Origin: Amaricoccus macauensis
Lineage (GTDB): Bacteria; Pseudomonadota; Alphaproteobacteria; Rhodobacterales; Rhodobacteraceae
NCBI RefSeq assembly: GCF_014201905.1
Contig: NZ_JACHFM010000002.1
Location: 1,178,001-1,242,000 of the forward strand
Length of the DNA stretch: 64,000 bases
Reading direction: 5' to 3'
Shown piece after piece: positions 29,365 through 49,535 of the stretch. Made by a program: the position numbers and the translations under genes. Every line of letters starts with the position of its first letter. The first letter of the stretch is position 1. The notes under the pieces were generated by a model. The model saw only the letters and a program-made list of their open reading frames with translations, ran no database searches and had not been told where the DNA came from.

Positions 29365-30525
29365 TCAGGAGGCGGCGCGGATCATGTTTCGGGCGATGAC
29401 GATCTGCTGGATCTGGCTCGTCCCCTCGTAGATGCGGAAGAGGCGGGCGTCGCGGTAGAAGCGTTCGATGCCATAGTCGGCCATGTAGCCAGCCCCGCCG
29501 TGGATCTGGACGGCGCGATCGGCGACCCGTCCGACCATCTCGCTTGCGAAGAGCTTGCAGCAGGCCGCCTCGGTCGCCACGTCCTGACCGGCATCGCGGC
29601 GTCGGGCTGTCTCCATGACCATGCAGCGCGCGGCGTAAGCCTCCGCGCGGCTGTCCGCGAGCATCGCCTGGATGAGCTGGAATTCGGCGATCGGCTGGCC
29701 GAACTGCCTGCGCTCCATGGCGTAGGCGAGACTGTCCTCGATGAGCCGCTCGGCCATGGCGACGCAGACCGCTGAGATGTGGAGACGACCGCGGTCGAGG
29801 GTCTTCATGGCCGTCCTGAAGCCCTGGTTCTCGACACCGCCGAGGAGTGCCGCAAACGGAACGTGGCAGTCCTCGAGCACCACGTCCGCGGTGTGAGACC
29901 CCTTCTGCCCCATCTTGCGGTCGGCGGGTCCAATCGAAAGGCCCGGCGTCCCGGCCTCGATCAGGAAGGCCGAGACACCCCGGCCTCCCTCCCGCCCCGC
30001 ATCGGTCCGGGCAAAGACCGTGAAGAGGCCGGCATGGGGAGCATTGGTGATGAACCGCTTCGTGCCGTTCAGGACGTAGCCGTCGCCGACGCGCCGCGCG
30101 GTGGTGCGGAGCGAACCGGCGTCCGAGCCGGCCTCCGGCTCGGTGAGCGCGAACGAGCTGATGAGCTCGCCCGTCGCCAGCCGCGGCAGATAGCGCGCCT
30201 TCTGCTCCTCGGTGCCGTCCAGGATGAGGCCGAGCGAGCCGATCCCGTTGTTCGTCCCGACCAGCGAGCGGAAAGCCGGCGACGTCCTGCCGAGTTCGAG
30301 GGCGATCCTGACCTCTTCCTCCATATCGAGCCCGAGTCCGCCGTACTCCTGCGGGATCGTCAGGCCGAATAGCCCGAGATCGGCGATCTCCTGCCGGATC
30401 CGCTCCGGGATCGCGTCGTCGTCGGCGACGCGAGCCTCCAGCGGCCGCAGGCGCTCCCTGACGAAGCGCGCCACCGTCTCCACCAGTTCGTTCATCGTGT
30501 CGGCTTCGAGAGCCATCGGACCCAT
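29365..30525 (-). CDS. Acyl-CoA dehydrogenase family protein
   Basis: ATG 30525 has GAGGGGG about twelve bases upstream and gives 386 residues, normal for the family; ATG 30588 is an alternative. Signatures in order: FGLTIPQEYGGLGLD, SFALTEPEAGSDAGSL (FAD/substrate loop), NGTKRFITNAPHAG, the ADRKMGQKGSHTADV segment, and a C-terminal GGAGYMADYGIERFYRDAR, with IYEGTSQIQ at the end. The catalytic base Glu of IYEGTS is present. The substrate is likely a short or branched acyl-CoA. It is divergent from a CaiB-type CoA-transferase, which would supply the CoA ester. Confidence 0.93.
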   Translation of the reverse strand: MGPMALEADTMNELVETVARFVRERLRPLEARVADDDAIPERIRQEIADLGLFGLTIPQEYGGLGLDMEEEVRIALELGRTSPAFRSLVGTNNGIGSLGLILDGTEEQKARYLPRLATGELISSFALTEPEAGSDAGSLRTTARRVGDGYVLNGTKRFITNAPHAGLFTVFARTDAGREGGRGVSAFLIEAGTPGLSIGPADRKMGQKGSHTADVVLEDCHVPFAALLGGVENQGFRTAMKTLDRGRLHISAVCVAMAERLIEDSLAYAMERRQFGQPIAEFQLIQAMLADSRAEAYAARCMVMETARRRDAGQDVATEAACCKLFASEMVGRVADRAVQIHGGAGYMADYGIERFYRDARLFRIYEGTSQIQQIVIARNMIRAAS

Positions 30526-30589
30526 CCATTGATCGACGCCCCCTCGGCGCATCGCGTTCATACATGGGCCAGTGCCGATTGACGACACA

Positions 30590-30606
30590 TGAAATATGAT
30601 ATAACG
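30590..30606. promoter_or_regulatory. Island operator site A (acyl-CoA dehydrogenase / CoA-transferase)
   Basis: GAAATATGATATAACG lies in the 200-base divergent region at about 30591-30606. It contains the core ATATGATATA that recurs before the aminotransferase operon and, in minus orientation, before the TauD gene. It is probably a binding site for the island's GntR protein. Symmetry here is weaker than at site B. Confidence 0.55.
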
Positions 30607-30725
30607 CTAGTTACCAGAGCGAGTTGAAGACCATCTTCCCGCCATGACCCGGCCTGATCCCTGACGCCGATCGCGCCCCCGATCGGGCCGCTATCCGTGT
30701 CCGCAGAAGGGGATTGCGCCACGCA

Positions 30726-31943
30726 ATGAGCATTGCATTGAAAGGCCTTCGGGTTCTCGACCTGTCACGGGTACTGGCGGGTCCGTGGGCCACGATGACG
30801 CTGGGCGATCTGGGCGCCGAGGTCCTGAAGGTCGAACAGCCGGGCGCGGGCGACGACACCCGACGATGGATGCCCCCGTCGCTGGACGGGGTGTCGACCT
30901 ACTACCTTGCAGCGAACCGCAACAAGAAGAGCATCGCGATCGACATCGGCACCCCCGCGGGGCGGGCGCTCATCGTCGAGCTGGCACGGCAGAGCGATGT
31001 CCTGATCGAGAACTTCCGGCCCGCGTCCCTGAGGAAGTTCGGGCTCACCTACGACGATCTGCGCGAGATCAATCCGCGGCTCATCGTCTGCTCCATATCG
31101 GGCTACGGCCGCGGGCACGCGCTCGAGGAGCGCCCGGGCTACGACTTCGTCATCCAGGCCGAATCGGGGTTCATGTCCATCACGGGCGAGAGGGACGGCG
31201 AGCCGGTACGGCTCGGCGTTGCGTTCATCGACCTGATCTCGGGCATGAACGCGGTTCAGGCAATTCTCGCGGCGCTCGTCATGCGCGAGCGGACCGGAAA
31301 GGGCCAATGGCTCGACATCAGCCTGACGGACAGTGCGATGTTCCTGCTCGCCAACGTCGCCTCGGGGTATCTGAACACCGGCACGGAGCCTCGCCGCTAC
31401 GGCAATGCCCATCCGAGCGTCGTGCCGTACCAGCTTTTCGATTGCGCCGACGGGCGTGTCGCGCTGGCGGTCGGCAACGATCAGCAGTTCCGGCGTTTCT
31501 GCCGGATCATCGGCAGGCCGGAACTCGCCGACGATCCACGGTTCGCGACGAACAAGGGGCGGGCCGAGGCGCGTGACGCCTTGCTTCCGGTCATCGAGGC
31601 CTGTCTGAGCGAGCGGCCGCTCGGCGATCTGCTCGCCGATCTCCGCGCCTCCGGCGTACCGGCCGGCGAGGTTCGCTCGGTGGGGCAGGCATTCGGCAGC
31701 GAGGTTGCGGCCCTGAGGGATACCATCCTTTCGACGCATTGCGAGAGAGTCGGGACCGTCCGGTCGGTCCGCAATCCGTTGCGCATGTCCGACAGTCCCT
31801 TCGCCGCCCCTACTCCCCCGCCCGGCGTCGGAGAGCACACCCGCGACGTGCTGATGGAGAAGCTCGGACTGACGGGCGGCGACATCGACCGTCTCCGGGA
31901 CGGGGGAATCGTCGCCTTCGGGGAGCACTGGCCGGCGCAATAG
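30726..31943 (+). CDS. CaiB/BaiF family (type III) CoA-transferase
   Basis: ATG 30726, with GAAGGGGA about twelve bases upstream, gives 405 residues. The start GLRVLDLSRVLAGPWATMTLGDLGAEVLKVEQP is the family hallmark. The catalytic Asp is in RPGYDFVIQAESGFM (about residue 141). DTR near residue 45 and RTGKGQWLDISL near 198 also match. Type III enzymes move CoA between organic acids through an aspartyl-CoA thioester intermediate. Divergent pairing with acyl-CoA dehydrogenase suggests activation of a dicarboxylic or hydroxy acid followed by oxidation. The actual acid is unknown. Confidence 0.94.
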   Translation: MSIALKGLRVLDLSRVLAGPWATMTLGDLGAEVLKVEQPGAGDDTRRWMPPSLDGVSTYYLAANRNKKSIAIDIGTPAGRALIVELARQSDVLIENFRPASLRKFGLTYDDLREINPRLIVCSISGYGRGHALEERPGYDFVIQAESGFMSITGERDGEPVRLGVAFIDLISGMNAVQAILAALVMRERTGKGQWLDISLTDSAMFLLANVASGYLNTGTEPRRYGNAHPSVVPYQLFDCADGRVALAVGNDQQFRRFCRIIGRPELADDPRFATNKGRAEARDALLPVIEACLSERPLGDLLADLRASGVPAGEVRSVGQAFGSEVAALRDTILSTHCERVGTVRSVRNPLRMSDSPFAAPTPPPGVGEHTRDVLMEKLGLTGGDIDRLRDGGIVAFGEHWPAQ

Positions 31944-32074
31944 TGGCGGACAGGCGCAGGGCTTCCGGCGGGTCGAAGCGAGCCGTCACCTGCCTGCCCG
32001 GCACCAGAGCCGCCTTCCCGCCGTTCGCAGGTCGATTTCCACACCAGACCAGCGCCGTGATCGTTGTGCCACTT

Positions 32075-32095
32075 AAAGATATATGATATATCTTT
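32075..32095. promoter_or_regulatory. Island operator site B, 21-base perfect palindrome
   Basis: AAAGATATAT at 32075-32084 and its exact complement at 32086-32095 flank a central G at 32085. The site ends 20 bases before the aminotransferase start, in a place fit for repression. It is the most symmetrical copy of the motif shared with sites A, C and D. Confidence 0.75.
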
Positions 32096-32115
32096 CGGAA
32101 AGCAGGTGAGGTTGC

Positions 32116-33345
32116 ATGCTAACGAATTCGGTTGATCAGACGTTGCGGCGCCGTGCGGACCGCGTCGTGCCGGGGTCCATGTGGGGCCACCTGCACGCGG
32201 GCAAGCTGCCACCCGGATTCCCGCAGTTCTACGCACGCGCGGAAGGCGCGCGGGTCTGGGACGTCGACGGGCGCTGCTACCTCGATTTCATGTGCGCCTG
32301 GGGACCGAACCTGCTCGGGTACGGGAACGCCGAGGTCGATGAAGCCGCATTGCGGCAGCAGTCGCTCGGCGACACCATGAACGGGCCTTCGGAAGCCATG
32401 GTCGAGCTGGCCGAACTCCTGGTCGAGACGGTCGGGCATGCCGACTGGGCGATGTTCCAGAAGAACGGGACGGACGCCACCACGACCTGCGTCACGATTG
32501 CCCGCGCCGCCACCGGACGGCGGAAGGTTCTCATCGGACGCGGCGCCTACCACGGCGCGGCGCCGTGGTGCTCGCCATCGGTCGTCGGCGTAACGGCGGA
32601 GGACCGGACGCATCTCTGCTACTTCGACTACAACGACCTCGGGAGCCTCGAAGCCGCGGCGCGCGAGGCCGGGGCGGATCTCGCGGCGATCATCGTCTCG
32701 CCGGTCCGGCAGGAGCGGGAGCTGGATCAGGAATTCCCGACTCCGCAGTTCGCCAATGCCGTGCGCGCGATCTGCGACCGGACCGATGCCGTGCTGATTC
32801 TCGACGAGGTGCGCACCGGGCTTCGGCTGCACCTCGAAGGCAGCTGGCAGCCGCTCGGCATCGAGCCGGACCTCGCGGCCTGGAGCAAGGCCCTTGCCAA
32901 CGGTTACCCGCTCGCCGCGGTGACCGGCAAGGACCACCTGAGGGCCGCCGCGGCCGGGATTTTCGTGACCGGCTCGTTCTGGTGTTCGGCCGTTCCGATG
33001 GCCGCGGGGATCGCCACCATCAACATCGTGAAACGCGAGCGCGTGATCGAACGGCTTCTCGACATGGGCGGGCGGCTCCGCGCCGGCATCGCCGCGCTCG
33101 CGGAGCGGCACGGCGTGGCGCTGCGCCAGACCGGACCGGTGCAGATGCCTTCGATCCGCTTCGACAACGACCCGGGGCTTCGCAAGGGCGATCTCTTCTG
33201 TCAGGCGGCGCTCGACAAGGGCGTCTACTTCCACCCCTGGCACAACATGTTCCTGTCCGCCTCGCACGGCCTCGCAGAAATCGAGGAGGCCATCGCCGCC
33301 GCGGACGTCGCCCTCGCGGCAGTCGCGGAGCGTTTCGGGGGATGA
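32116..33345 (+). CDS. Class III aminotransferase, GSA-aminomutase-like
   Basis: The product is 409 residues, with AGGTGAGG six to thirteen bases before ATG. The layout matches glutamate-1-semialdehyde aminomutase-like class III enzymes: GARVWDVDGRCYLDFMCAWGPNLLGY, KNGTDATTTCVTIARAATGR (phosphate region), the Asp of LILDEVRTGLR, and the PLP lysine Lys258 in WSKALANGYPLAAV. It lacks the usual GGxMP ending of true HemL. It is first in a five-gene series with a two-part transketolase and a DSD-like PLP enzyme, directly behind operator B. It may remove or move the amino group of the island's substrate. Confidence 0.92.
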   Translation: MLTNSVDQTLRRRADRVVPGSMWGHLHAGKLPPGFPQFYARAEGARVWDVDGRCYLDFMCAWGPNLLGYGNAEVDEAALRQQSLGDTMNGPSEAMVELAELLVETVGHADWAMFQKNGTDATTTCVTIARAATGRRKVLIGRGAYHGAAPWCSPSVVGVTAEDRTHLCYFDYNDLGSLEAAAREAGADLAAIIVSPVRQERELDQEFPTPQFANAVRAICDRTDAVLILDEVRTGLRLHLEGSWQPLGIEPDLAAWSKALANGYPLAAVTGKDHLRAAAAGIFVTGSFWCSAVPMAAGIATINIVKRERVIERLLDMGGRLRAGIAALAERHGVALRQTGPVQMPSIRFDNDPGLRKGDLFCQAALDKGVYFHPWHNMFLSASHGLAEIEEAIAAADVALAAVAERFGG

Positions 33346-33495: not shown

Positions 33496-34377
33496 ATGGC
33501 GAGGCCAGAGGGCATGACGGCAACCCGGTCAGGCGACGACCGGCAGCCGGCGTGGCGAACGCGGGATGCAAAGGAACTGGCTGAGCTGGCGCGCAGGTTG
33601 CGCCGACGGGTCATCGGGCTCGTGGCTCCGACCGGTCAGGGCTATGTCCAGCAGGGGCTGGGCGCGGCCGACATCTTCGCCGTCCTCTATTTCGCCGAAC
33701 TCAGGCTCGACCCGGCCGATCCCCGCTGGGCGGCCCGGGACCGGATGCTGCTCTCCACGGCGCACAACACCGCGATCCTCTACGCGACCCTCGAGGCGCG
33801 CGGCCTGGTTCCCGAGGTCGAGGGCTATTGCATCGACGGCTCGGTCTTCGAGATCAACGCATCGGAACGCGTCGGGAGCGCCGTCGAGGCGACCCTCGGA
33901 TCGCTCGGACAGGGCCTTTCGGTGGGCGCGGGCCTTGCGCTCAGCCACCGGCGGCGGGGGTCGGACGCGCGCGTCTACGTCGTCCTCGGCGACGGCGAAC
34001 TGCAGGAAGGCCAGGTGTGGGAGGCGGCCCTTCTCGCGGGCAGCCGGCGGCTCTCGAACCTCTGCCTGATCGTCGACGACAACCAGTTGCAGTGCGAAGG
34101 CCACTCCGACGAGGTCATGCTGCACGCCCCGGTCGCGGAGAAGTTCCGGGCGTTCGGCTGGGACGCGCACGAGGTCGACGGCCACGACATCGAAGGGCTT
34201 CTGGCCGCCTTCGACCGCGCCCGAAGCCTGACGGACAAGCCCACATGCCTCGTGGCGCGCACGTTGCCGGGCAAGGGGGCTGCGGGTCTCGAGGGCATCT
34301 ACGCCCACAACCTCAAGCTGCCGCCCGACGTCGCCGAAAGCGCCCTAAAATCCCTAGAGACCGTGCAGGAGTTCTGA
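33496..34377 (+). CDS. Transketolase, N-terminal (TPP-binding) subunit
   Basis: The product is 293 residues, with AGCGGAGGGA before the start. It covers only the N-terminal half of transketolase. RRVIGLVAPTGQGYVQQGLGAADIFAVLYF is the opening helix pair. STAHNTAILYATL and LGSLGQGLSVGAGLALSHRRR follow. The TPP/Mg motif is GDGELQEGQVWEA near residue 165, with DDNQLQCEG about 27 residues later. The partner subunit starts three bases after the stop. Split transketolases of this size occur in several dedicated catabolic pathways (for example for apiose or sulfosugars) besides the central full-length enzyme. They move a two-carbon ketol unit. Confidence 0.93.
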   Translation: MARPEGMTATRSGDDRQPAWRTRDAKELAELARRLRRRVIGLVAPTGQGYVQQGLGAADIFAVLYFAELRLDPADPRWAARDRMLLSTAHNTAILYATLEARGLVPEVEGYCIDGSVFEINASERVGSAVEATLGSLGQGLSVGAGLALSHRRRGSDARVYVVLGDGELQEGQVWEAALLAGSRRLSNLCLIVDDNQLQCEGHSDEVMLHAPVAEKFRAFGWDAHEVDGHDIEGLLAAFDRARSLTDKPTCLVARTLPGKGAAGLEGIYAHNLKLPPDVAESALKSLETVQEF

Positions 34378-34379
34378 CC

Positions 34380-35366
34380 ATGGCGAGCGCAGCAGACGAC
34401 CTCACGGTCGAGGACTTCAGCGCCCGCTCGGCCAGCGCGGCGCTGGCCGAAAAGCACTACGGCAACGCGTTGCTGGCAGCGGCGCAGTCGAACCCGGACA
34501 TCGTCTGCCTGACGGCGGATCTCACCCTTCCGACCGAGACCGACCTCTTCCGCGACGCGCTTCCCGACCGCTTCTTTCAGGTCGGCATCGCTGAGGCGAA
34601 CATGATCGGGCTCGCGGGCGGCATGGCGCGGAACGGCGATGTCCCGTTCGTCCACTCGTTCTGCGTGTTCGCCACCCGGCGGTGCTACGACCAGATCGCG
34701 ATGCAGGTCGCCTATCCAAACCTCAACGTGAAGGTTGTGGGTGTCCTCCCCGGCCTTTCCACCCTGCTCGGAGTCTCGCATCAGGCGATCGACGACATCG
34801 CGCTGATGCGCGCGCTGCCGAACATGACGGTGATCGAGCCGTCCGGGCCGAGCCAGGTGCGCAAGGCCGTGGCGGCCGTCGCGGAGCACGTGGGACCGGT
34901 CTACCTGCGGATGAAGCGCGCCGACGGGACGGAGATCGACGTGGCGCCGGACGCGAGTCCGTTCGAGATCGGCAAGGTCCGGATCCTGAAGGAAGGCCCC
35001 GACGGGCTCCTGCTCGGCTGCGGCATGATGATCCCGGTCCTGATGGACGCCGCCGGACGCCTCGAGATCGAGGGGCATCACGTCTCGGTCGTCGATGTGG
35101 CCACGATCAAGCCGCTCGATCCGGCCATCGTCGAGCTTGCGGCGGCCGCGCCGGTCGTCATCACCGCCGAGAACCACTCGATCATCGGCGGGCTCGGGAG
35201 CGCGGTCGCGGAGTTGCTCATGGAGGAAGGCGTCGCCCGGCCCTTCGCCCGGATCGGCGTGGAGGACGTGTTCGCCGAGGGGGGCACGACCCCCTACCTT
35301 TTCGAGCGCTACGGGCTGTCAGCCGACGCCGTCATCGGCGTCTACTACGCGAAGCTGGAAGGCTGA
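34380..35366 (+). CDS. Transketolase, C-terminal subunit
   Basis: The product is 328 residues from ATG 34380, two bases after the N-subunit stop. It holds the pyrimidine-binding domain: GIAEANMIGLAGGMA carries the Glu that activates TPP, and FCVFATRRCYDQIAMQVAY matches the usual helix. The C-terminal transketolase domain (LLLGCGMMIPVLMDAA, then VVDVATIKPLD) completes it. Together with the previous gene it makes one full transketolase. The acceptor-phosphate residues of canonical enzymes cannot be judged by eye. The cluster context points to an unusual donor or acceptor linked to the aminotransferase next door. Confidence 0.93.
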   Translation: MASAADDLTVEDFSARSASAALAEKHYGNALLAAAQSNPDIVCLTADLTLPTETDLFRDALPDRFFQVGIAEANMIGLAGGMARNGDVPFVHSFCVFATRRCYDQIAMQVAYPNLNVKVVGVLPGLSTLLGVSHQAIDDIALMRALPNMTVIEPSGPSQVRKAVAAVAEHVGPVYLRMKRADGTEIDVAPDASPFEIGKVRILKEGPDGLLLGCGMMIPVLMDAAGRLEIEGHHVSVVDVATIKPLDPAIVELAAAAPVVITAENHSIIGGLGSAVAELLMEEGVARPFARIGVEDVFAEGGTTPYLFERYGLSADAVIGVYYAKLEG

Positions 35367-35467: not shown

Positions 35468-36760
35468 ATGACTTCCAACGCAGAACACCCACTTCTCGAC
35501 CACCGGACCAAGGGCATCCCCGGTGGCACGGAGCCCTTCCCGCCCGAGGCGATCGCCTCGAAGAACTGGAACGTCCTCCGGGGCGACCTGCCGCTGCCGC
35601 TCGCGATCCTGCGCGAGCCGCGCATCGCCAACAACGAGCGATGGATGCGGGAGTTCTGCGCCAGCGCGAACGTCTCCTTCGCGCCGCACGGCAAGACCAC
35701 GATGTGCCCGCAGCTCTTCCGCCGCCAGCTCGACAACGGCGCCTGGGCCATCACGCTTTCCACCGCGCATCAGGTGCAGGTGGCCCGGGACTTCGGCGTC
35801 GACCGCATCCTCGTCGCGAACGAGGTCGTCGATCCCCGGTTCCTCGACTTCGTCATGGGCGAACTCGACGCGGATCCGGACTTCGACTTCCTCTGCCTGA
35901 TCGACTCCGAGGCGGGCGCGCATCTCGCCGGGCGCCACATCCGCAAGCTCGGGAGCCGGCGGCGGCTCGGGGTCCTGATCGAGATCGGCGCCATGGGCGG
36001 CCGGACGGGGGCGCGCGGTCTCGAGACGGTGCGCGCCATCGCAGATGTCATCGCAGGCTACGCCGACGAACTCGAGCTGCGCGGGATCGAGTCCTACGAG
36101 GGAATCTTCCCGGGGCCGGCCGAGGGCAATCTCGACAAGGTCCATGCGATGATGGACGAGACCTGTGCGGCGGCGCGGGCCCTCGATGCGGAGGGCGCCT
36201 TCACGGGTGCGGAGATCGTCCTCTCGGCCGGCGGGTCGGCCTACTATGACATCGTGGCCGAGCGGCTCGGGGCGCTGACGCTGTCGCGGCCAGTTCGCGT
36301 CGTGACGCGATCGGGCTGCTATCTCACCCACGACGCGGTGATGTACCACAACTACTTCACGTCGCTTCAGGCGCGCTCGGAGCGCGTGCGCGCGGTGCCC
36401 GGCGAGCCGGAGCCCGCGCTTCAGGTCGTCACGCGCGTGCAGTCGACGCCCGAAAAGGGCCTCGTGCTCCTGACCGGCGGCAAGCGCGATCTCTCGTTCG
36501 ACGTGCACATGCCCGTGCCGAGCCTCTGGCGGCGCGACGGCGATCACCCGGAGCCCGTCCAGATTGGCGAGGGATACGAGATTTTCGCGCTCGCCGACCA
36601 GCACGCCTTCATGCGCGTGCCCGGCGACTGCCCGTTGCAGGTGGGCGACATGGTCTTTCTCGACATTTCCCACCCCTGCACGACGTTCGACAAGTGGGAC
36701 GTCCTCTACGGGGTCGATGCAGCCTACAACGTGACGACCGCATACAAGACCTACTTCTGA
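35468..36760 (+). CDS. D-serine dehydratase-like PLP enzyme (alanine racemase fold)
   Basis: ATG 35468 gives 430 residues. The N-terminal part is a fold-type III PLP barrel with Lys76 in PHGKTTMCPQLF as the Schiff-base lysine. The C-terminal domain ends with SHPCTTFDKWD, where His402 and Cys404 match the zinc ligands of eukaryotic-type D-serine dehydratase. Known relatives are D-serine dehydratase, D-threo-3-hydroxyaspartate dehydratase and D-threonine aldolase; bacterial members are often called amino acid deaminase. Its likely reaction is elimination or retro-aldol cleavage of a beta-hydroxy D-amino acid. It is last in the right-facing operon, before the shared terminator. Confidence 0.88.
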   Translation: MTSNAEHPLLDHRTKGIPGGTEPFPPEAIASKNWNVLRGDLPLPLAILREPRIANNERWMREFCASANVSFAPHGKTTMCPQLFRRQLDNGAWAITLSTAHQVQVARDFGVDRILVANEVVDPRFLDFVMGELDADPDFDFLCLIDSEAGAHLAGRHIRKLGSRRRLGVLIEIGAMGGRTGARGLETVRAIADVIAGYADELELRGIESYEGIFPGPAEGNLDKVHAMMDETCAAARALDAEGAFTGAEIVLSAGGSAYYDIVAERLGALTLSRPVRVVTRSGCYLTHDAVMYHNYFTSLQARSERVRAVPGEPEPALQVVTRVQSTPEKGLVLLTGGKRDLSFDVHMPVPSLWRRDGDHPEPVQIGEGYEIFALADQHAFMRVPGDCPLQVGDMVFLDISHPCTTFDKWDVLYGVDAAYNVTTAYKTYF

Positions 36761-36809
36761 GCCGATCAGGCGGGCCGGCGGCCCGCCCCCTGCCCTGTCG
36801 GAAAAAGGA

Positions 36810-36848
36810 AACGGGGCCGATCGCCACACGCGATCGGCCCCGTTTTTT
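36810..36848 (+). terminator. Strong two-way Rho-independent terminator
   Basis: A perfect 15-base stem pairs 36810-36824 with 36830-36844 over a five-base loop (CACAC), followed by T residues to 36848. On the other strand an A-rich stretch (GAAAAAGGAA, 36801-36810) gives a T-rich tail. It lies midway between the convergent DSD-like and aldehyde dehydrogenase genes and can stop both arms of the island. Confidence 0.92.
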
Positions 36849-41630: not shown

Positions 41631-43286
41631 TCAGGCGCCGCGATTGTCGGACAGGATGCTGCTGGCGCAGATGTAGCCCCAGGTCATGTAGGGTCCGATC
41701 GTGGTGCCCACCTGACTGGGCGTGCGGGTTCCGACCGGGTTCGCCATGACGTTGCCCGCACAGTAGAGGCCCGCGATGACGCTGCCGTCCTCGCGCAACG
41801 CCTGCCCCCGGGCGTTGGTGCGCACCCCGCCCTTCGTGCCAAGCACCGAGGGCTTGCAGCGGATCGCGACGTAGGGCGGCGTGTCGATCGGCCGCATCAG
41901 GCCGAGCCGCTTCGCGAGGGCGCGTCCGTACTCGTCCTCGCCGCGCCCGAACTCCGTATCGACGCCGGCCTTGGCCATCCGGTTGAAGTTCCAGACGGTA
42001 TCCTGAAGGTTGGCGGCATCGACCCCGATGCGCTGCGCCAGCTCCTCCACGCTCCGCGCGTAGACCAGCCAGTTCCTGTCGTAGCGCTTGTACCAGTTGA
42101 TGAGCAGCGTCCGCCGGACCATGGGCCTGTGAGTGATGACCCACGCCGGAAGGTGCGCCGACCTGCCGGTTTCCGCATCGACGCCCATGATGCGGTCGTT
42201 GATCGTGAAGCTGTATTCGTTGACGAACCTGCGTCCCGAACGATCGACGATGATCGCGTCGGCGTCGGTGTGGATGACCAGCGGCAGGCCATGCAGGGCG
42301 CCCTCGTAGCGGATCGGCGGCTGGACCATGATGTTGGCCTGATCCATCCGGGCAAAGGCCGCGCCGGCCTCCTGCGCCATCCGGTGGCCGTCGCCGGTGT
42401 TGGTCCGGGGGCTGCTGCGATACTCGTAGTCGGTGGGGAAGTACTTCGCCATCATCTCGGCGTCCCATTCGAACCCCCCGGTGGCGAGAACGACGGCGCT
42501 GGTGACATTGACGCGGAACGGCCGCCCGTTGCGCTCGCAGTCGACCGCCGTCACCACGTCGTTCTCGTCAAGAACCAGACCGGTCGCCCGGCAGGACAGC
42601 TCCAGCCGGCAGCCATGATCGAGGCACCCCTTGAGCAGTCCGACGATCACCGCCCGCCCGCGCGACACGCCGCCCGAGAGGTAGCGCCGGAGCATCGTCG
42701 CGCCGTAGCGGATGGCCCCCATCACCGGCTTTCGCAGGATGTTCGCCCGCTGGGCCTCCGCGTAGGTCATGTTGAGGGGCAGCGTCGAGGAACGGACGAG
42801 ATCCCCGTAGCGGCCGATCAGCTTCCTGCTGACGGGAACCGGGCTCAGGAGACGCCCGAGCCGCTTCGCGCCCGGAAGCTCCATCATGGGGTCGGGCACG
42901 TCGGCTATCGTGAAGCGGAGGGGCGAGTGCGCCTCGACGAAGCGCAGCATGTCTGGACCGTTCGCCACCTGCGCGCGCAGAAGCTCGCCTTCGGTTTCGA
43001 GCCAGCCCGCGGGCGCGGCCGCCTCCACGTACCGGATGGCCTCTTCGACGGAGTCCCGGTGCCCGGCGGCGGCGGCCAGATGGTTGGCGGGCACCCACGT
43101 CATGCCACCGGACATGGCGCTGGTGCCACCGATGCTCGCGGCCTTCTCCAGGATGACGACCGACCGGCCGCCGGCCGCTGCCCTGAGGGCCACCGTGAGC
43201 GCCGCCGCGCCCGACCCGATGACGGCGACGTCACAGCGGATCGAATCGCCGCGTTCGTCGACGGCGTTGGGAGCTGAGGCGCCCAT
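41631..43286 (-). CDS. FAD-dependent dehydrogenase, fumarate reductase/KstD-like
   Basis: The product is 551 residues, with AGGAG before the start. The dinucleotide motif VAVIGSGAAALTVALRAAAGG is at residues 20-40, followed by LEKAASIGGTSAMSGGM, where the GGTS segment is typical of FrdA/KstD-type flavoproteins. GGFEWDAEMMAKYFP and the late segment GLYCAGNVMANP support this family. It lacks a heme or Fe-S domain and any signal peptide, so it is probably a soluble flavoprotein acting on a C-C or C=C bond. Relatives include 3-ketosteroid dehydrogenases and tricarballylate dehydrogenase. A steroid substrate is not suggested by the neighbours. Confidence 0.9.
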   Translation of the reverse strand: MGASAPNAVDERGDSIRCDVAVIGSGAAALTVALRAAAGGRSVVILEKAASIGGTSAMSGGMTWVPANHLAAAAGHRDSVEEAIRYVEAAAPAGWLETEGELLRAQVANGPDMLRFVEAHSPLRFTIADVPDPMMELPGAKRLGRLLSPVPVSRKLIGRYGDLVRSSTLPLNMTYAEAQRANILRKPVMGAIRYGATMLRRYLSGGVSRGRAVIVGLLKGCLDHGCRLELSCRATGLVLDENDVVTAVDCERNGRPFRVNVTSAVVLATGGFEWDAEMMAKYFPTDYEYRSSPRTNTGDGHRMAQEAGAAFARMDQANIMVQPPIRYEGALHGLPLVIHTDADAIIVDRSGRRFVNEYSFTINDRIMGVDAETGRSAHLPAWVITHRPMVRRTLLINWYKRYDRNWLVYARSVEELAQRIGVDAANLQDTVWNFNRMAKAGVDTEFGRGEDEYGRALAKRLGLMRPIDTPPYVAIRCKPSVLGTKGGVRTNARGQALREDGSVIAGLYCAGNVMANPVGTRTPSQVGTTIGPYMTWGYICASSILSDNRGA

Positions 43287-43375: not shown

Positions 43376-44161
43376 TCACCTCTGAAGGAACCGGTCGATC
43401 TTCACGAACCGTGCCGTCAGGATGAGGACCGTCAGCGTGACGATGACGAGGCCGGAGGACACGGCGGTCAGCGACGGATCGAGCGGCGACCATTCGAGAC
43501 CGGTGTAGATCTGCACCGGCAGCGTCACCATCGTGGAGGTCGAGAGGAAGAGCGACACCTCCAGGCTGCCGAACGAGATCATGAACGCAAATCCCCACCC
43601 GGCGAAGAGGCTCCACGAGATGCTCGGGACGGTGATCTTGCGGAAGGCCATGATCGGCGACGCTCCGAGACTGCGCGCCGCCCGCTCCAGCGCTCCATCG
43701 TTCGACGCAAGGCCGACCATGTTCATGGAGACGGCGAACGGCGTCGCGATCATGATGTGGCCCGCCACCAGCGAGAGCGGCGTGCCGCCGAAGCCCAGCG
43801 CCGAATAGAAGAGCAGGAACGCGAGGCCGAGGAACACCGCAGGCAGCATCGCCGGCGTCATCACGAGCAGGTAGACGACCTTGTTGAGCGGTGTCCTGTA
43901 GCGGTGCAGCGCCAGGGCCGTCGGCAGCGCCATCGCCGTCGCGACCGTCGCCGCCGCCGTCGCCACGCCGAGGCTCATGATGAGCGCGTACATCGACTCC
44001 TGTTCGGCGAAGATCTTCATATACCAGCGCAGGCTCAGCCCCTCGGGCGGGAACGAGACGTAGTTGGCCTCGGTCAGCGAGCCGATGGTGAGCGCGAGGA
44101 CGGGCGCCAGCAGGAACGTGAAGAACGCCACCGCGTAGACGGGAAGAAGATATTTCCTCAT
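43376..44161 (-). CDS. ABC transporter permease, PotC-type
   Basis: The product is 261 residues with six membrane helices. The inner-membrane-complex loop signature (EAA motif) appears as LERAARSLGASPIMAFRKITVPSI near residues 165-190. Its start overlaps the stop of the PotB-type permease (ATGA, 44158-44161). With the other three genes it forms an importer of the spermidine/putrescine/2-aminoethylphosphonate class. The substrate of this class cannot be told from the permease. Confidence 0.93.
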   Translation of the reverse strand: MRKYLLPVYAVAFFTFLLAPVLALTIGSLTEANYVSFPPEGLSLRWYMKIFAEQESMYALIMSLGVATAAATVATAMALPTALALHRYRTPLNKVVYLLVMTPAMLPAVFLGLAFLLFYSALGFGGTPLSLVAGHIMIATPFAVSMNMVGLASNDGALERAARSLGASPIMAFRKITVPSISWSLFAGWGFAFMISFGSLEVSLFLSTSTMVTLPVQIYTGLEWSPLDPSLTAVSSGLVIVTLTVLILTARFVKIDRFLQR

Positions 44162-45087
44162 GACACCACACTCGAAGCTTGCGCCGGGCCGGAACTGCCG
44201 ATCGGGACGTCGGTCGCGTTGAGACGTCGCGCCGACGCCCAGACCCTGGAGAAACCGCTGGCAAGGACGAGGCACCCCGTCGTCGTCAGCAGCAGAAGCA
44301 CCGCGAGGCTTGCCGCCTTGGGCCAGTTGAGCAGGTTGATCGCCTGCTGGTAGACGAGGAGCGAGGCGAACTTGTTGGTCTGGCCGCCGAGGATGATCGG
44401 CGTCGCATACGAACTCATGCTGAGCGAGAAGACCAGCAGGCACCCTGTCCTCAGCCCCGGCAGGGACTGCGGAAAGACGATCCTCCAGAAGGCCTTCGCG
44501 GGAGACGCGCCAAGGCTCCGGGCGGCACGGACGTGGTTCTGGTCGATGCTCTGCAACGACGCGGCGATCGAGATCACCATGAACGCCGAGAGCGTGTAGA
44601 CCAGTCCGACGACGATCGCCCATTCCGTCTTGATGATGCGGAGCGGCGCATCGATCAGCCCGAGGTTCATCAGCAGGTTGTTCACCGCGCCGCCGTGGCC
44701 GAGCAGGATCAGCCAGCCGTAGGTCGTGACCGTCACGCTCGTCATCAGCGGCAGGAGCAGCAGGATGAACATCGCCGTCTGCCGCCACCCGACCACGCTC
44801 AGGATGTAGACGCTGATCGGGTAGCCGACGATCGCCGCGGCGATCGTCGTGATCAGGCTGATGCGTATCGTCCGCAGGAAGACCTCGCGGACGAACTCGT
44901 CGGACAGGAGGTCGACGTAGGTCGAGAGCGTGTAGGCGCTGCCAGTCGCGGCCGCGCCGTCGCCCGGCGTGAAGCTCAGGTTGACCAGATTGCCGATCGG
45001 CACCGCGTAGAGGAGGCCGAAGATGAGGGTCGGCACCGCGATGAGCGACAACCAGGACGATGCCGACCTGCCGAGGAGCCGCCCCAT
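44158..45087 (-). CDS. ABC transporter permease, PotB-type
   Basis: ATG 45087 shares one base with the ATPase stop (TGATG); an in-frame GTG at 45090 is an alternative. The product is 309 residues with six membrane helices. The first helix (WLSLIAVPTLIFGLLYAVPIG) lacks a cleavable signal. The EAA loop is VRAARSLGASPAKAFWRIVFPQSLPG. PotB-type permeases pair with a PotC-type partner, here the next gene. The overlaps on both sides show a tightly coupled ABC operon. Confidence 0.93.
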   Translation of the reverse strand: MGRLLGRSASSWLSLIAVPTLIFGLLYAVPIGNLVNLSFTPGDGAAATGSAYTLSTYVDLLSDEFVREVFLRTIRISLITTIAAAIVGYPISVYILSVVGWRQTAMFILLLLPLMTSVTVTTYGWLILLGHGGAVNNLLMNLGLIDAPLRIIKTEWAIVVGLVYTLSAFMVISIAASLQSIDQNHVRAARSLGASPAKAFWRIVFPQSLPGLRTGCLLVFSLSMSSYATPIILGGQTNKFASLLVYQQAINLLNWPKAASLAVLLLLTTTGCLVLASGFSRVWASARRLNATDVPIGSSGPAQASSVVS

Positions 45088-46187
45088 CACTGCGCCTCTT
45101 CCTTCTTCACGATCAGGCCCCGGTCGGACGCCCAGTCGATGTAGACGCTCTGGCCGCGCTGCACGCCCCTGAGCGACGAGGCGAACTGCTCGTCACCGGA
45201 GAGCACCATCGGCGCCTCCCCGATCTGCGTGCGGATGACGGTCCGGTTGCCGAGGAAGGTCACATCGACCAGCTTCGCCTCGAACCGGTTCGTTGCCGCG
45301 CAGGTTCCGCAGGCCGGCCGCGTGCCGACCCGGATGTCCTCCGGGCGCACGATGATCTGCACATGGTCGCCGGACCGAAGTCCTCCCGAATGCCGCGCCA
45401 TGACCGGTCCGACACCGCCGGCGTCCACCGTGGCGACCCCGGAGGCGACGCTCCTCAGCCGGCCTTCGAGCACGTTCGACTCGCCGATGAAGCTCGCCAC
45501 GAACAGATTGGCCGGGGAGCGGTAGATCTCCCGCGCACTGCCCATCTGCTCGATGCGGCCGCGACGCATGACGGCAATCGTGTCCGCGATCGCCATCGCC
45601 TCTTCCTGGTCGTGGGTGACCATGATGGTCGCGATCTTGAGCGGCCGCAGCAGTTCGAGAAGCTCGTTCCGCATCTCGACCTTCAGCCGGGCATCGAGGT
45701 TGCTGAACGGCTCGTCGAGCAGCAGCAGCGCCGGCTTGATCGCGATCGCGCGGGCGAAGGCGATACGCTGCTGTTCGCCGCCGGAGAGCTGCTTGGGAAA
45801 GCGCTTGGCGGCGTGCGAGAGCTTCACGAGACGCAACATGTCCGTGACGCGATCGCACACGCTGGCCTCGGCCTCCCGGCGCATTCTCAGCCCGAAAGCG
45901 ACGTTCTCGAAGACCGTCATGTGCGGGAAGAGCGCGTAGTTCTGGAACATGATCCCGATGTTCCGCTTTTCGGGGGGAAGCCCCGTGAGAGCTTCCCCCC
46001 TGACAACTACCCTCCCGCCATCGGTCTCGACGAAGCCGGCGATCGCGTTGAGCGTGGTGGTCTTTCCACACCCCGACGGGCCAAGCAGACAGAGCCGTTC
46101 GCCTTCGGCGACGTTAAATGAAACATGGTCGAGCACGCGGACGCTGCCGTAGGAGTGCTCGAGCGACTGAACAGAAAGGTAGCTCAT
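45087..46187 (-). CDS. ABC transporter ATPase, PotA-type
   Basis: The product is 366 residues. Walker A is GPSGCGKTT near residue 37, the signature is LSGGEQQRIAFARA, Walker B is LLLLDEPFSNLD, and the switch His is in VTHDQEEAMAIAD. The C-terminal 120 residues form the TOBE/regulatory domain (RPEDIRVG, then VTFLGNRTVIR). A Cys pair (CGTCA) near residue 300 inside this domain is unusual for the class and could be redox-sensitive or chance. It powers the two permeases that follow. Confidence 0.94.
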   Translation of the reverse strand: MSYLSVQSLEHSYGSVRVLDHVSFNVAEGERLCLLGPSGCGKTTTLNAIAGFVETDGGRVVVRGEALTGLPPEKRNIGIMFQNYALFPHMTVFENVAFGLRMRREAEASVCDRVTDMLRLVKLSHAAKRFPKQLSGGEQQRIAFARAIAIKPALLLLDEPFSNLDARLKVEMRNELLELLRPLKIATIMVTHDQEEAMAIADTIAVMRRGRIEQMGSAREIYRSPANLFVASFIGESNVLEGRLRSVASGVATVDAGGVGPVMARHSGGLRSGDHVQIIVRPEDIRVGTRPACGTCAATNRFEAKLVDVTFLGNRTVIRTQIGEAPMVLSGDEQFASSLRGVQRGQSVYIDWASDRGLIVKKEEAQ

Positions 46188-46205
46188 CCGGTCGTCCCCG
46201 CCTGC

Positions 46206-47249
46206 TTACCGTTCGACCTCGCGGTTCCACCGCTCGGTCCAGGCGGCGCGCTCCTTGTTGATCGCCGGCCAGTCGGGACGGATCAGCTTGCCGATCGTCT
46301 CCTCGCCGTAGATCACCCCGTCCGCCAGCTCGGGCGTGAGCTTCACCTTCGCGTTCACCGGCCCGACGCGGGACTGCTCGACGTAGATCGCCTGCGCATC
46401 CTCGCTGAGCAGATAGTTGAGCCAGGTCTCCGCGTTCGACTGGTTCGGGCTGTCCTTCACGAGGTTCAGCATCGGCATCACGATCGGCGTGCCGTCCTCG
46501 GGGTAGACGAACTTGAGGGGGAAGCCGGTGCGCCGCACGAAGCGCGCGGTCTCGCCGTTCGTCCAGACCGAGACCGCGATCTCGCCCTGCTGGAACTCCT
46601 TGCTCATCTCGCCGCCGGCGCCGAACGCGGAGACATTCTTGACGACGTCCCGGACCTTCTCGAAGCCCGGATCGATGTTCTCGACGCTGCCGCCGTTGTT
46701 CTGGGCCAGCATCATCAGGGTGAAGACGCCGGGTGTGCTGTTGAAGCCGGGCATCCCGACCATTCCCTCGAAACGGGGATCGGCGAGGTCGTTCCACGTA
46801 CGCGGCGGCGCGACGCCGGCCTTCGTCAACGCTTCCTCGTTGTAGACGAGGCCCATGGCGAGCAGGCCGTAGCCGACGCCGGAATCGTCCACGCCGCGCG
46901 CGATCGGCAGGGTGTCCTGGTAGTTCACAACCGTTTCCGGGACCGCACGCAGAACGCCGAGGTCGCGCGCCTGGCCCTGCGGGCCGTTGTCGATGCAGAC
47001 GAGATCGTATTCCGGCTTCTGGGCCTGCGCCTGAAGCTGCGCGACGAAGTGGGTCGACACTCCCGGAATGTAGCGAACCTTGATGTCGTGTTTCGACTCG
47101 AAGTCCTTGATGAGATAGTTCTCGTAAGTCTGCTGAACCGTGCCGCCGAAGCAGCCGAACACGATTTCCCCCCCGGCGTGAGCAGTCCCGGCCAGCGCGA
47201 ATACCGACGCTGCGGCGAGAAGGCACTTCTTGAAGCAGGATACTGTCAT
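46206..47249 (-). CDS. ABC transporter substrate-binding protein, PotD/AfuA-type
   Basis: ATG 47249 with GAGGGAAG upstream gives 347 residues; ATG 47267 is less likely. A signal peptide ends at GTAHA near residue 26. The mature protein starts GGEIVFGCFGGTVQQTYENYLIKDFE, as in type II extracellular binding proteins for polyamines, phosphonates or iron. WNDLADPRFEGMVGMPGF and NAETWLNYLLSEDAQAIYVE match the PotD family. Polyamine-binding Asp/Trp pockets cannot be verified by eye. It delivers the unknown substrate of the island to the PotABC-type importer. Confidence 0.92.
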   Translation of the reverse strand: MTVSCFKKCLLAAASVFALAGTAHAGGEIVFGCFGGTVQQTYENYLIKDFESKHDIKVRYIPGVSTHFVAQLQAQAQKPEYDLVCIDNGPQGQARDLGVLRAVPETVVNYQDTLPIARGVDDSGVGYGLLAMGLVYNEEALTKAGVAPPRTWNDLADPRFEGMVGMPGFNSTPGVFTLMMLAQNNGGSVENIDPGFEKVRDVVKNVSAFGAGGEMSKEFQQGEIAVSVWTNGETARFVRRTGFPLKFVYPEDGTPIVMPMLNLVKDSPNQSNAETWLNYLLSEDAQAIYVEQSRVGPVNAKVKLTPELADGVIYGEETIGKLIRPDWPAINKERAAWTERWNREVER

Positions 47250-47285
47250 TTCCACTACTTCCCTCATTGGACGTTGGTCATTGAA

Positions 47286-47316
47286 CTCGAGCCAGCGATC
47301 CGTTCGCTGGCTTCGA
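47286..47316 (-). repeat. Hairpin between TauD and binding-protein genes
   Basis: AGCCAGCG at 47290-47297 pairs with CGCTGGCT at 47305-47312 over a seven-base loop, and flanking TCGA bases extend it with a bulge. It lies between two genes transcribed leftward. A T-run at 47338-47344 is on the wrong side for leftward termination. It may stabilise the binding-protein mRNA 5' end. Confidence 0.45.
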
Positions 47317-47351
47317 GCAGGCTCTTGTTTTTTTGACGGATGACGGTGCGG

Positions 47352-48518
47352 TCAGGTCGGCGTCGGCGTCTGGAAGAACGCCTTCGATCCGCCCGACTCG
47401 TAGGGCTTGATCCTCGACGCGGCGATGCCAGCACTCTGCTTCGCCACGATGTCGGCCTGCTTGGCCTTCATGAAGTTCGTCGGGAATTCCATGCTCGGGG
47501 TGCGGTTGGCGAGCCAGCGCCGCGCGATGTCGAAGGTGAGTCCCACCTGCCGCTGCGGCCGCGCCGGCCAGTCGCGGACTTCGAGCCAGAGGCGCAGCAT
47601 ATACCGGCGCCGATTCACCTCGTCGTGGTCCTCGTATCCGGCGCGACCGTGCAGCACGCTCCGGTTGTTGACGAACTGGATGTCACCTTCCTGGATGTTC
47701 ATGTCCAGGACGTATTCATCGGAGTTCACGATCTCCATGTAGAAGTCGTAAGCTTCGAGCTGAAGATCGGTCAGCTTCTTGCCGCCCTTCTCGACGGCGC
47801 GCTTGATTTCCCCGCTGTTCATGTTGCAGAAGAATTCGCCATTGCGAATGGCGAAGACCTCGACGGGTTCCGGAGACATCGGATCGATCCCGGCCTTCTC
47901 GGCGTCGTTGTCCATCTGGCGATAGAAGAAGCCGTCGTAGAAGACCTGCGCGAATGCCGGGTTCTTCTCGACCATCGCATTGTGGACAGCGAGCGCGCTG
48001 ACGAGTCGGCTCGCGCCCCCCGACTTCGCCGCGCGCAGACACATGAGCGAGACGATATCGCAGGCGGTTCCGTCGGTGTGGAAGCCCTGCTTGCCGCCCG
48101 CCTGATAGCCGCGCACACCCGGATCCGCGTCGGTGATGTCGATGACGCTCCCGAGCAGCTCGCCGTTGTGGGACTGCGGCACCGGGAAGCCCATGTACGT
48201 GCCGAGCGCGAAGTAGATCTTGCTGAGCTGGTCGTCGGAGTACTTGTCCCGCGGCAGTCCGCGCAGCAGCACGACGCCCGGGCCGTACCTCAGGTCGTAC
48301 TTGAGACCGGCCAGCATCCGGCCGACCTCGGGGAGAGGAAAGGTCGCCGGGTTGATTTCCAGGAGGTCCGACAGACCACACTGCTCGAACTTCCGCAGAC
48401 CCGCGTCGATCTCGGACACCTCGTCCGCCGTGAGAGTCTGCAACGCGTCTGAATGGTAGTCAAACGAACCGCCTTTCCAGGCGGCGGGGCTTTCAAGCCC
48501 CTGTGGACGATCGTGCAC
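47352..48518 (-). CDS. TauD/TfdA-family 2-oxoglutarate dioxygenase
   Basis: A GTG start at 48518 with GGGGAG upstream gives 388 residues. The iron site is the facial triad: HTD in GGKQGFHTDGTACD (about residues 146-148) and the distal His in SVLHGRAGYED near residue 289. The 2-oxoglutarate Arg is in RRRYMLRLWLE about twelve residues later. The family couples decarboxylation of 2-oxoglutarate to hydroxylation of the substrate. It is the first gene of the left-facing series, just behind operator C, so it probably makes the first attack on the imported compound. The long N-terminal and C-terminal extensions resemble gamma-butyrobetaine- and AsnO-type relatives. Confidence 0.92.
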   Translation of the reverse strand: MHDRPQGLESPAAWKGGSFDYHSDALQTLTADEVSEIDAGLRKFEQCGLSDLLEINPATFPLPEVGRMLAGLKYDLRYGPGVVLLRGLPRDKYSDDQLSKIYFALGTYMGFPVPQSHNGELLGSVIDITDADPGVRGYQAGGKQGFHTDGTACDIVSLMCLRAAKSGGASRLVSALAVHNAMVEKNPAFAQVFYDGFFYRQMDNDAEKAGIDPMSPEPVEVFAIRNGEFFCNMNSGEIKRAVEKGGKKLTDLQLEAYDFYMEIVNSDEYVLDMNIQEGDIQFVNNRSVLHGRAGYEDHDEVNRRRYMLRLWLEVRDWPARPQRQVGLTFDIARRWLANRTPSMEFPTNFMKAKQADIVAKQSAGIAASRIKPYESGGSKAFFQTPTPT

Positions 48519-48540
48519 TTTCCGCTCCCCGTATGTGCAT

Positions 48541-48556
48541 TTGATATATCATATCA
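48541..48556. promoter_or_regulatory. Island operator site C (TauD operon)
   Basis: TTGATATATCATATCA at 48541-48556 contains the perfect palindrome TGATATATCA. Read on the minus strand it includes ATATGATATATC, identical over 12 bases to site B. It ends about 23 bases before the TauD start codon, so binding here should block the promoter or start of the ten-gene series. Confidence 0.72.
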
Positions 48557-48761
48557 CCATACGGACATTGCGCAAGTCAACATCTTTGTTGGAGCGCGGG
48601 TGGAATCCTCTCGGGCGGATCGGACGGTTCGGTGCCGTGGAAATCGCGGCAAGACGGCCACGCGCACGAAAGACCGCAAGCGCCGCGCCCGCGGGCGCGG
48701 CGGCATCTGGTCCGGGTTTCGGGGAGAGTCGCCGGGAGGCCGCTTTGGCGTCGGGGAAAAC

Positions 48762-49535
48762 CTACTTCGGTTTCCGTCTGGCACGGGACGCGCGTTCGGG
48801 CTCCGTCGCCATGCTCCGGGTGTCGCCGATCGACTCCAGGAATTGCAGGAGCTTGGCGCCGCCCTGAATCATGTCGCTCTGCACGGAATTCTTCACACCG
48901 GAGGCGTCCCGCCTCTTCAGCATGTCGAGGATGACGAAATGCTCGTGACCGCCGTCATACGTCGGCCGCGCGTGCGGATAGAGGTAGTTCAGCAGCGGGC
49001 CGTTCCGCATCCAGATGTCGCCGAGGATATGCAGCAGCTCCGGCATCTGCGCCGCCTCGTAGAGCCGGTTGTGAAACTGCCAGTTCGCCCGGACCGCGTC
49101 TCCCCAGCGGCCGGACTCTTCCGCCTCCATCAGCTCGCAATGGGAGACCTTCATGAGTTCGATGTCCTCATCGGAGATCTTCGGCGTCGCGGTCTCCGCC
49201 GCCAGCCCCTCCAAATAGAGCCGGATGGTGCGCAGCTCCAGATACTGCGCATGGGTCATGTGGGCGACCACGATCGAGCGGCCATCCAGCAGTTCCAGAG
49301 CCCTCGCCCGGACGAGCTGCATCAGCGCTTCCCGGATGGGCGTCTCGGAAACCTGCATGGAAGCGGCGAGGTCGCGGATCTTGAAGCGATGTCCGGGCCA
49401 GAACCGCCCCTCCATCAGGCCGGTTCTGAGACTGTTGTATACGCTGCGGGTCAGACTATCGCGGGAAATCGGTTCCATTGGAGCGAGTTCGCCCCTCGGG
49501 GCACCGTCCATCTCTCTCAAACTCACCTCCACCAT
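48762..49535 (-). CDS. GntR-family regulator (FCD type) of the catabolic island
   Basis: The product is 257 residues from ATG 49535; ATG 49511 (behind GGAGGTGAG) and ATG 49478 are alternatives. The winged helix (RSVYNSLRTGLMEGRFWPG, then MQVSETPIREALMQLV) is typical of FadR/VanR-type GntR proteins. The all-helical FCD domain holds NWQFHNRLY and GGHEHFVILDML, whose His residues line the usual metal/ligand pocket. The gene follows the TauD promoter region on the same strand. Shared AT-rich sites before the island's operons, plus a related site before this gene, make it the likely local repressor. Confidence 0.92.
   Translation of the reverse strand: MVEVSLREMDGAPRGELAPMEPISRDSLTRSVYNSLRTGLMEGRFWPGHRFKIRDLAASMQVSETPIREALMQLVRARALELLDGRSIVVAHMTHAQYLELRTIRLYLEGLAAETATPKISDEDIELMKVSHCELMEAEESGRWGDAVRANWQFHNRLYEAAQMPELLHILGDIWMRNGPLLNYLYPHARPTYDGGHEHFVILDMLKRRDASGVKNSVQSDMIQGGAKLLQFLESIGDTRSMATEPERASRARRKPK

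Follow-up and report, generated by a model that had tools for sequence, protein, structure and literature searches.

Which reactions could bring together a 2-oxoglutarate dioxygenase, a class III aminotransferase, a two-chain transketolase (TK) and an ATP-binding cassette (ABC) importer in a single gene island? The question is posed by a stretch of 64,000 nucleotides from Amaricoccus macauensis (here called the window; positions 1178001-1242000 of contig 2 in the 4.83-Mb genome G000). Within it, 17 open genes spanning 29365-49511 comprise a divergent acyl-CoA dehydrogenase (ACAD; CoA, coenzyme A) gene, a 5-gene plus arm and an 11-gene minus arm; gene starts were picked by eye from the open reading frames, and the families of all 17 proteins were confirmed by Pfam. 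An earlier note on this DNA had described sixteen genes facing one another across one terminator. All the genes that it listed were open, the arrangement was as stated and the hairpin was found, but the count is 17.

We tentatively propose that the island is one GntR-controlled regulon in which an imported amine would be transaminated to a ketol, and the ketol cleaved by a thiamine diphosphate (ThDP) enzyme; the reactions, their order and the substrate are those that we infer. The proposal is based on sequence, namely on gene content, kinship of the aminotransferase with FumI, an altered TK pocket, recurrent pairing of aminotransferase and TK genes, and a shared palindrome. The features on which it turns are as follows.

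30590-30606: weak operator-like copies (2 mismatches) between the ACAD and CoA-transferase genes (palindrome scan)
32075-32095: operator-like palindrome AAAGATATATGATATATCTTT, with 10-bp arms, upstream of the aminotransferase gene (palindrome scan)
32116-33345, plus strand: FumI-type class III aminotransferase (PDB 6hbs match)
33496-34377, plus strand: TK N-terminal (ThDP-binding) chain, TK-N, remodelled (Pfam, alignment)
34380-35366, plus strand: TK C-terminal (pyrimidine-binding) chain, TK-C, remodelled (Pfam, alignment)
48542-48551: exact operator-like palindrome TGATATATCA, upstream of the TauD gene (pattern scan)
48762-49511, minus strand: GntR/FCD regulator (Pfam)
49594-49603: weak operator-like copy (2 mismatches), upstream of the GntR gene (pattern scan)

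The aminotransferase and the split transketolase

The nearest solved relative of the aminotransferase was the aminopentol aminotransferase FumI of Sphingopyxis sp. MTA144, an enzyme of fumonisin catabolism (PDB 6hbs, 464 bits); the second-best solved match, glutamate-1-semialdehyde aminomutase, reached 167 bits. The alignment with 6hbs covered 401 residues without a gap. The active lysine is conserved in both enzymes, and K258, which we take to be the pyridoxal phosphate (PLP) lysine, was invariant across 9 relatives. Judged by these alignments, the island aminotransferase is a FumI relative. FumI shifts the 2-amino group of hydrolysed fumonisin B1 onto pyruvate, yielding a 2-keto-3-hydroxy product (PMC2933618). 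The term transketolase has a count of 0 in that paper. Because the island also holds an importer, TauD and CoA genes, its substrate probably differs from that of FumI.

For both TK chains, the best match was the Carboxydothermus split transketolase. As in the split-gene TK of Carboxydothermus hydrogenoformans (6yaj/6yak), the two-chain layout and the ThDP residues are present, and the metal-binding residues and both domains are retained; unlike that enzyme, the island TK has five substrate residues replaced. In Escherichia coli numbering, the window reads H26 to Tyr, H100 to Asn, R358 to Glu, S385 to Pro, H461 to Leu and D469 to Leu. These positions were taken from alignments; the roles of the residues and the conversion from human and yeast to E. 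coli numbers are in part presumed. For comparison, 12 related loci (11 linked to an aminotransferase; L087 had none in its 20.8 kb) were set against generic split transketolases, 78 for TK-N and 75 for TK-C. The generic set came from a scan of genome contigs with TK-N, whose hits were mostly generic transketolases: 78 loci served as controls, and the remaining two, L086 and L087, proved to be close relatives. The controls retained H26 (78/78), H100 (78/78), R358 (75/75), H461 (73/75) and D469 (74/75). The place of S385 was held by Ser in 30, Ala in 44 and Gly in 1, and is therefore little informative. Among the 12 related loci, R358 and D469 were lost in every one, and H26, H100 and H461 in 4. 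Three later loci, L211, L212 and L213, all carried Tyr, Asn and Leu at H26, H100 and D469, and L212 also lacked R520, a residue otherwise kept. On the changes at H26, H100, R358, H461 and D469, an ordinary sugar-phosphate transketolase was rejected. The labels of the earlier note, class III aminotransferase and split transketolase, thus held and could be sharpened to a FumI relative and, by its residues, a non-ordinary TK.

The same pocket has been altered by engineers. E. coli TK with H100L and D469T accepts pyruvate, a donor without the C1 hydroxyl, together with non-polar aldehydes; H100 and D469 were altered to obtain CH3-CO-CHOH-R ketols, among which analogues of spisulosine, phenylpropanolamine and phenylacetylcarbinol are mentioned (PMC10787763). 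Changes at R358, S385, D469 and R520 improve the use of aromatic aldehydes, and 1-deoxyxylulose 5-phosphate (DXP) synthases carry Phe at the H100 place (PMC7661550); D469T creates space for aromatic rings (PMC5073344). Like the engineered enzymes (H100L/D469T and relatives), the island TK is altered at H100 and D469; unlike them, it has Asn and Leu there and is changed at H26, R358 and H461 as well. The central point of our reading is that the product of FumI, a CH3-CO-CHOH-R ketol, would fit such an altered pocket.

FastTree analyses placed the window, L042, L047, L086, L087 and L211-L213 in one clade (clade I, support 0.99 for each chain) and 8 Rhodobacterales-type loci in another (clade II, support 1.0). 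In the TK-C tree, clade I was joined to L195, L196 and L214 (0.999) and clade II to L102 and L133 (0.986); the TK-N tree separated them more weakly (0.75-0.85). An aminotransferase gene was nearby in 5 of the 8 clade I members (window, L042, L047, L086 and L212). Since the two clades are not sisters, the pairing of TKs with FumI-type aminotransferases seems to have arisen more than once.

Recurrence of the gene pair and a shared palindrome

At E <= 1e-90, the aminotransferase was found in 9 of 292 genomes of the order, including G000, and the other 8 genomes held 12 copies. TK-N and TK-C lay within 10 kb of 10 of these 12 copies, in 7 of the 8 genomes; in this count, G078 and G207 each contribute two aminotransferase copies that have a single TK pair in common. 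Judged by the length of the open frames and by their neighbours, there were 10 split TK-N genes in the 8 genomes, 8 of which were those near an aminotransferase, and one genome, G141, had no split TK. Some of the opened aminotransferase or TK neighbourhoods contained further counterparts of island genes: a GntR homologue in 10 of 20 loci, a Pot-type importer in L047, L050, L051, L053 and L055, and, in L041 and L043, a relative of the island ACAD (63-67%) not far from the aminotransferase. In L211, which comes from another family, TK-N, TK-C and a 57% relative of the island flavin adenine dinucleotide (FAD) oxidoreductase form a run, with the FAD gene directly after TK-C, thereby tying a minus-arm gene to a plus-arm enzyme. 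In some loci, OtnK/OtnC genes and amide hydrolases (dimethylformamidase type, penicillin acylase, amidase) accompany the aminotransferase. The closest clusters (L047, L050-L055, L057 and L086) combine a FumI-type aminotransferase with a split TK as the island does, most with GntR and the palindrome; in contrast to the island, several have amide hydrolases and OtnK/OtnC, and TauD, VOC and the Ldh2 trio (Ldh2 with the iron-containing alcohol and aldehyde dehydrogenases) were seen in none.

The neighbourhood search proposed in the earlier note therefore recovered the aminotransferase/TK pair repeatedly, but no orthologue of the whole island was seen in the neighbourhoods opened, which represent part of the hits. 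That search compared TauD, the D-serine deaminase-like (DSD-like) enzyme and the aminotransferase with 292 genomes of the order, the iron-containing alcohol dehydrogenase with 244, TK-C with 385 genomes of the class, and 8 single proteins with plasmids.

The common core TGATATATCA emerged from palindromes in the intergenes of the island. Strong sites lie at the aminotransferase and at TauD (exact), and weak ones at GntR and in the ACAD/CoA-transferase intergene. In the window, 13 matches with <=2 mismatches were counted against 4.0 expected (largest shuffle, 10), 6 at these four places and 7 elsewhere; the 9-base core with <=1 mismatch gave 10 matches compared with 1.9, and some of these are the two strands of a single place. 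Genome-wide, the exact 10-mer occurs at 2 places, and one mismatch is found at 21, compared with 7 for the reversed pattern. Among relatives with a GntR homologue, the palindrome (<=1 mismatch) was present in 9 of 10 (L040, L042, L047, L050-L053, L055 and L057), with 25 sites in total versus about 0.1 expected per locus. It was present in 1 of 7 scanned loci without such a homologue (L041, about 4 kb from the aminotransferase); the 7 came from the 10 opened aminotransferase or TK loci of this kind, L044, L049 and L056 being excluded. The Agrobacterium larrymoorei DSD locus L021, which has a GntR relative, contained 4 sites versus 0.6 expected. Moreover, the minus-arm GntR protein is 63% identical to the regulator beside the aminotransferase/TK cluster of Rhizobium sp. 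SSA_523 (L047). The earlier note had named unrelated expression of the two arms as grounds against a single system; on sequence comparison the answer was in favour of a single system, given the palindrome in both arms, this related regulator and the L211 run. The sequence evidence favours both arms forming one regulon, with GntR as the putative palindrome-binding protein.

The other exact TGATATATCA in the genome lies on contig 1 (383883-383892, L183), where a short-chain dehydrogenase gene begins, in surroundings that also hold a zinc alcohol dehydrogenase and, beside that gene, a sigma-54 activator; it is perhaps due to chance or perhaps concerned with ketol metabolism.

A candidate amine pathway and its alternatives

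The remaining features of the island are listed below.

29365-30525, minus strand: ACAD (Pfam Acyl-CoA_dh), divergent from the plus arm
30726-31943, plus strand: CaiB-type (family III) CoA-transferase (Pfam CoA_transf_3)
35468-36760, plus strand: DSD-like PLP enzyme (Pfam D-ser_dehydrat; PDB 3gwq, 346 bits)
36809-36845: hairpin terminator between the convergent arms (16-pair stem, T-rich tail)
36886-38364, minus strand: aldehyde dehydrogenase (ALDH), succinate-semialdehyde type (TIGR01780, 562 of 646 bits)
38361-39605, minus strand: iron-containing alcohol dehydrogenase (Fe-ADH; Pfam)
39605-40621, minus strand: Ldh2-type dehydrogenase (Pfam)
40834-41469, minus strand: VOC (Glyoxalase_3) protein (Pfam)
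41631-43286, minus strand: KstD-like FAD oxidoreductase (Pfam, NCBIfam)
43376-44161, minus strand: permease 1 of a Pot/Phn-type ABC importer (Pfam, NCBIfam)
44158-45087, minus strand: permease 2 of the importer (Pfam, NCBIfam)
45087-46187, minus strand: ATPase of the importer (Pfam, NCBIfam)
46206-47249, minus strand: periplasmic binding protein (Pfam SBP_bac_8; nearest solved chain, 72 bits)
47352-48518, minus strand: TauD-family 2-oxoglutarate dioxygenase (Pfam)

Six adjoining gene pairs overlap or sit <=18 bp apart. A sigma-70 scan gave 0 promoter-like sites versus 1.6 in shuffles. Among the matches listed, which for the aminotransferase, ALDH, the FAD oxidoreductase, one permease and the ATPase were the best 25, no island protein reached an NCBIfam cut-off; the best for the CoA-transferase was succinate-glutarate CoA-transferase, at 399 of 750 bits.

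In the pathway that we propose, the imported amine would have, or be given, a 2-amino-3-hydroxy head. TauD, which matched its Pfam domain at 102 bits (cut-off 27) and has the H147/D149/H290 triad, most likely adds a hydroxyl beside the amine-bearing carbon first, although its position in the pathway is conjectural. The FumI-type aminotransferase would transfer the amino group, which FumI places on pyruvate, to an acceptor, leaving R-CHOH-CO-CH3 or R-CHOH-CO-CH2OH, and the two-chain ThDP enzyme would cut between the carbonyl and the hydroxylated carbon, freeing R-CHO and handing the two-carbon unit to another acceptor. ALDH could then oxidise R-CHO, after which the CoA-transferase and ACAD would lead into beta-oxidation; Fe-ADH, Ldh2 and the FAD enzyme may modify other hydroxyl or keto groups, and the DSD-like enzyme may deaminate an amino-acid by-product. 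Much of the outline in the earlier note is kept here, in that the genes form a catabolic set and cover uptake, loss of the amino group, transfer of two carbons and a step linked to CoA; hydroxylation by the dioxygenase as the first step is the part that stays presumptive. A literature search found no paper on a cluster with this gene list, in agreement with the earlier note.

Several observations weigh against this pathway and its single regulon. Of 14 plasmid records with the aminotransferase, 8 were opened, and only 2 of these 8 regions have a split TK (L042 and L047); L041 and L043 carry a fused alpha-ketoacid dehydrogenase with an acetoin-type E2, and a further 4 have neither. Approached from the TK side, only 2 of 6 loci had an aminotransferase (L086 and L212), two of the six being on short contigs. 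TauD, VOC and the Ldh2 trio stood beside the aminotransferase/TK pair in no neighbourhood opened. As to the pocket, Arg stands at the R358 place in L211, clade II TKs retain H26, H100 and H461, the window Asn at H100 is neither the engineered Leu nor the Phe of DXP synthases, and the control TKs came mainly from Firmicutes and other distant phyla. As to the palindrome, two of the four window sites carry 2 mismatches, L086 and L083 have a GntR gene or relative and no site, and the pattern was chosen from the same sequences used for counting. L211-L213 are therefore the fairer test, and in these the palindrome lies outside coding sequence in 1 of 3: 39 bases before TK-N in L211, as compared with inside TK-C in L213.

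The alternative that survives best, which we judge unlikely, is that the island is a mosaic of cassettes, the plus and minus arms acting on related but separate substrates and having merely a common regulator. The gene order of Ldh2, Fe-ADH and ALDH recurs, separately from the aminotransferase and TK, in 4 of 4 opened rhizobial plasmid regions (ALDH 66-76%, Fe-ADH 52-66% and Ldh2 55-68% identical; 52-76% overall), where, unlike in the island, these genes are accompanied by other transporters and by a racemase-type enzyme, hydratase or aldolase. L076 and L081 also hold the trio, and this genome carries it a second time on contig 5 (L075); L077-L080 showed Fe-ADH and ALDH but no Ldh2. No paper on this cassette was found in the literature search. 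It is a general oxidation cassette and no mark of this island. Not every part of the island is thus special; its aminotransferase/TK core is recurrent, and no description of that core was found in the literature searched. A mosaic also agrees with a maximum of 7 of the 17 island genes in any neighbourhood opened, and with the separate settings of the DSD-like gene, which has an 81% relative beside an amino-acid importer in Shinella and others in L021 and L083. Against it, the palindrome is shared by both arms, the minus-arm regulator has a common ancestry with the one beside an aminotransferase/TK cluster (L047), and the FAD gene directly follows TK-C in L211.

A second alternative, which we regard as improbable, concerns the chemistry of the TK. 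It would move a hydroxyacetyl unit from HOCH2-CO-CHOH-R to glyoxylate, giving 3-oxotetronate for OtnK/OtnC; the substrates would be 2-amino-1,3-diols, with the two-carbon unit routed otherwise in the window. Such a transfer is favoured by OtnK/OtnC-type genes in the vicinity of the aminotransferase (L040, L041 and L043, by annotation; L047, L050, L051 and L052) and by retention of H100 in clade II. However, we noted no OtnK/OtnC gene in the island, the closest OtnK-like protein of the genome reaches 40% (contig 3), and the H100 place is taken by Asn in clade I, the clade of the window. A betaine- or phosphonate-like pathway, in which TauD would hydroxylate an imported quaternary or phosphonate amine, the class III enzyme would be an ammonia-lyase or mutase and the TK would serve a later sugar-like step, is likewise improbable: weak matches of TauD to gamma-butyrobetaine dioxygenase (38.8 bits) and TmpA (30.9 bits), of the importer components to PhnT2/PotA-type models and of the class III enzyme to the lyase PbfA (97 bits) hint at it, but those scores are far under cut-off, FumI is by far the closest solved relative of the aminotransferase, and the sugar-phosphate residues of the TK are lost.

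If the proposed pathway of transamination and ketol cleavage is correct, nature would supply catalysts for making 1-deoxy ketols and amino alcohols, and the pathway would suggest how some bacteria break down sphingoid-like or ephedrine-like amines. A recurrent gene pair on which no paper was found thereby gains a function that can be tested, as do TKs whose altered positions include some that engineers mutate for related chemistry; the predicted regulator and operator make inducer screening a way to seek the substrate. A broader extension, that bacteria generally treat amines by hydroxylation with a dioxygenase, transamination by a FumI-type enzyme and ketol cleavage by TKs re-specialised at least twice for non-sugar substrates, is rather doubtful; if true, it would be the natural, catabolic equivalent of the synthetic cascades in which chemists couple transaminase and transketolase in vitro (PMC8719814).

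Individual proteins and neighbouring regions

The nearest solved relative of TauD was PDB 7n7v. The best plasmid relative (43%, Paraburkholderia) adjoins a CoA-transferase gene, and the best in the order was 35% identical. TauD scored below the cut-offs for gamma-butyrobetaine dioxygenase (38.8 of 414.75 bits) and TmpA (30.9 of 400). For the importer, a spermidine/putrescine PotABCD system was rejected (PotA subfamily 341 of 355.6 bits, PotB 155 of 348, PotC 122 of 326, PotD 38 of 582), and the model cut-off for a 2-aminoethylphosphonate importer was likewise not reached. The DSD-like gene did not qualify as BhcC 3-hydroxyaspartate aldolase (48 of 690 bits), and the best plasmid relative of the VOC protein was 34% identical.

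In the Paraburkholderia locus (L020, 16419-22663), inspection by eye showed CitE-like, aconitase-like and isocitrate-lyase-like genes with the CoA-transferase and TauD relative; together they may form a further acid pathway that starts with a dioxygenase. The DSD-like relatives in L021 and L083 share their clusters with dimethylformamidase-type genes, directly adjacent in L083, an arrangement that suggests a wider family of amide/amino-acid clusters.

Downstream in the window, a histidinol-dehydrogenase-family remnant (49790-50353, minus strand; residues 82-182 match profile positions 80-179 of 411) sits between the island and a hydroxyproline-type catabolism cluster at 50398-58892. The latter contains a 4-hydroxyproline epimerase (57891-58892; 598.7 bits, cut-off 376), a cis-3-hydroxyproline-dehydratase-like enzyme (50434-51534; 348 of 500 bits) and DHDPS-like, amino-acid ABC and DadA-like genes (by eye). 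A link between the island and hydroxyproline was set aside because the 50.4-59 kb cluster has its own GntR-like gene (51582-52598, by eye). Further on, at 60602-63960 (minus strand), a 3-hydroxyacyl-CoA dehydrogenase family gene (NF004783; 474.5 bits, cut-off 347) lies beside BKACE-like and gluconolactonase-like genes (by eye), perhaps representing a carnitine-type route.

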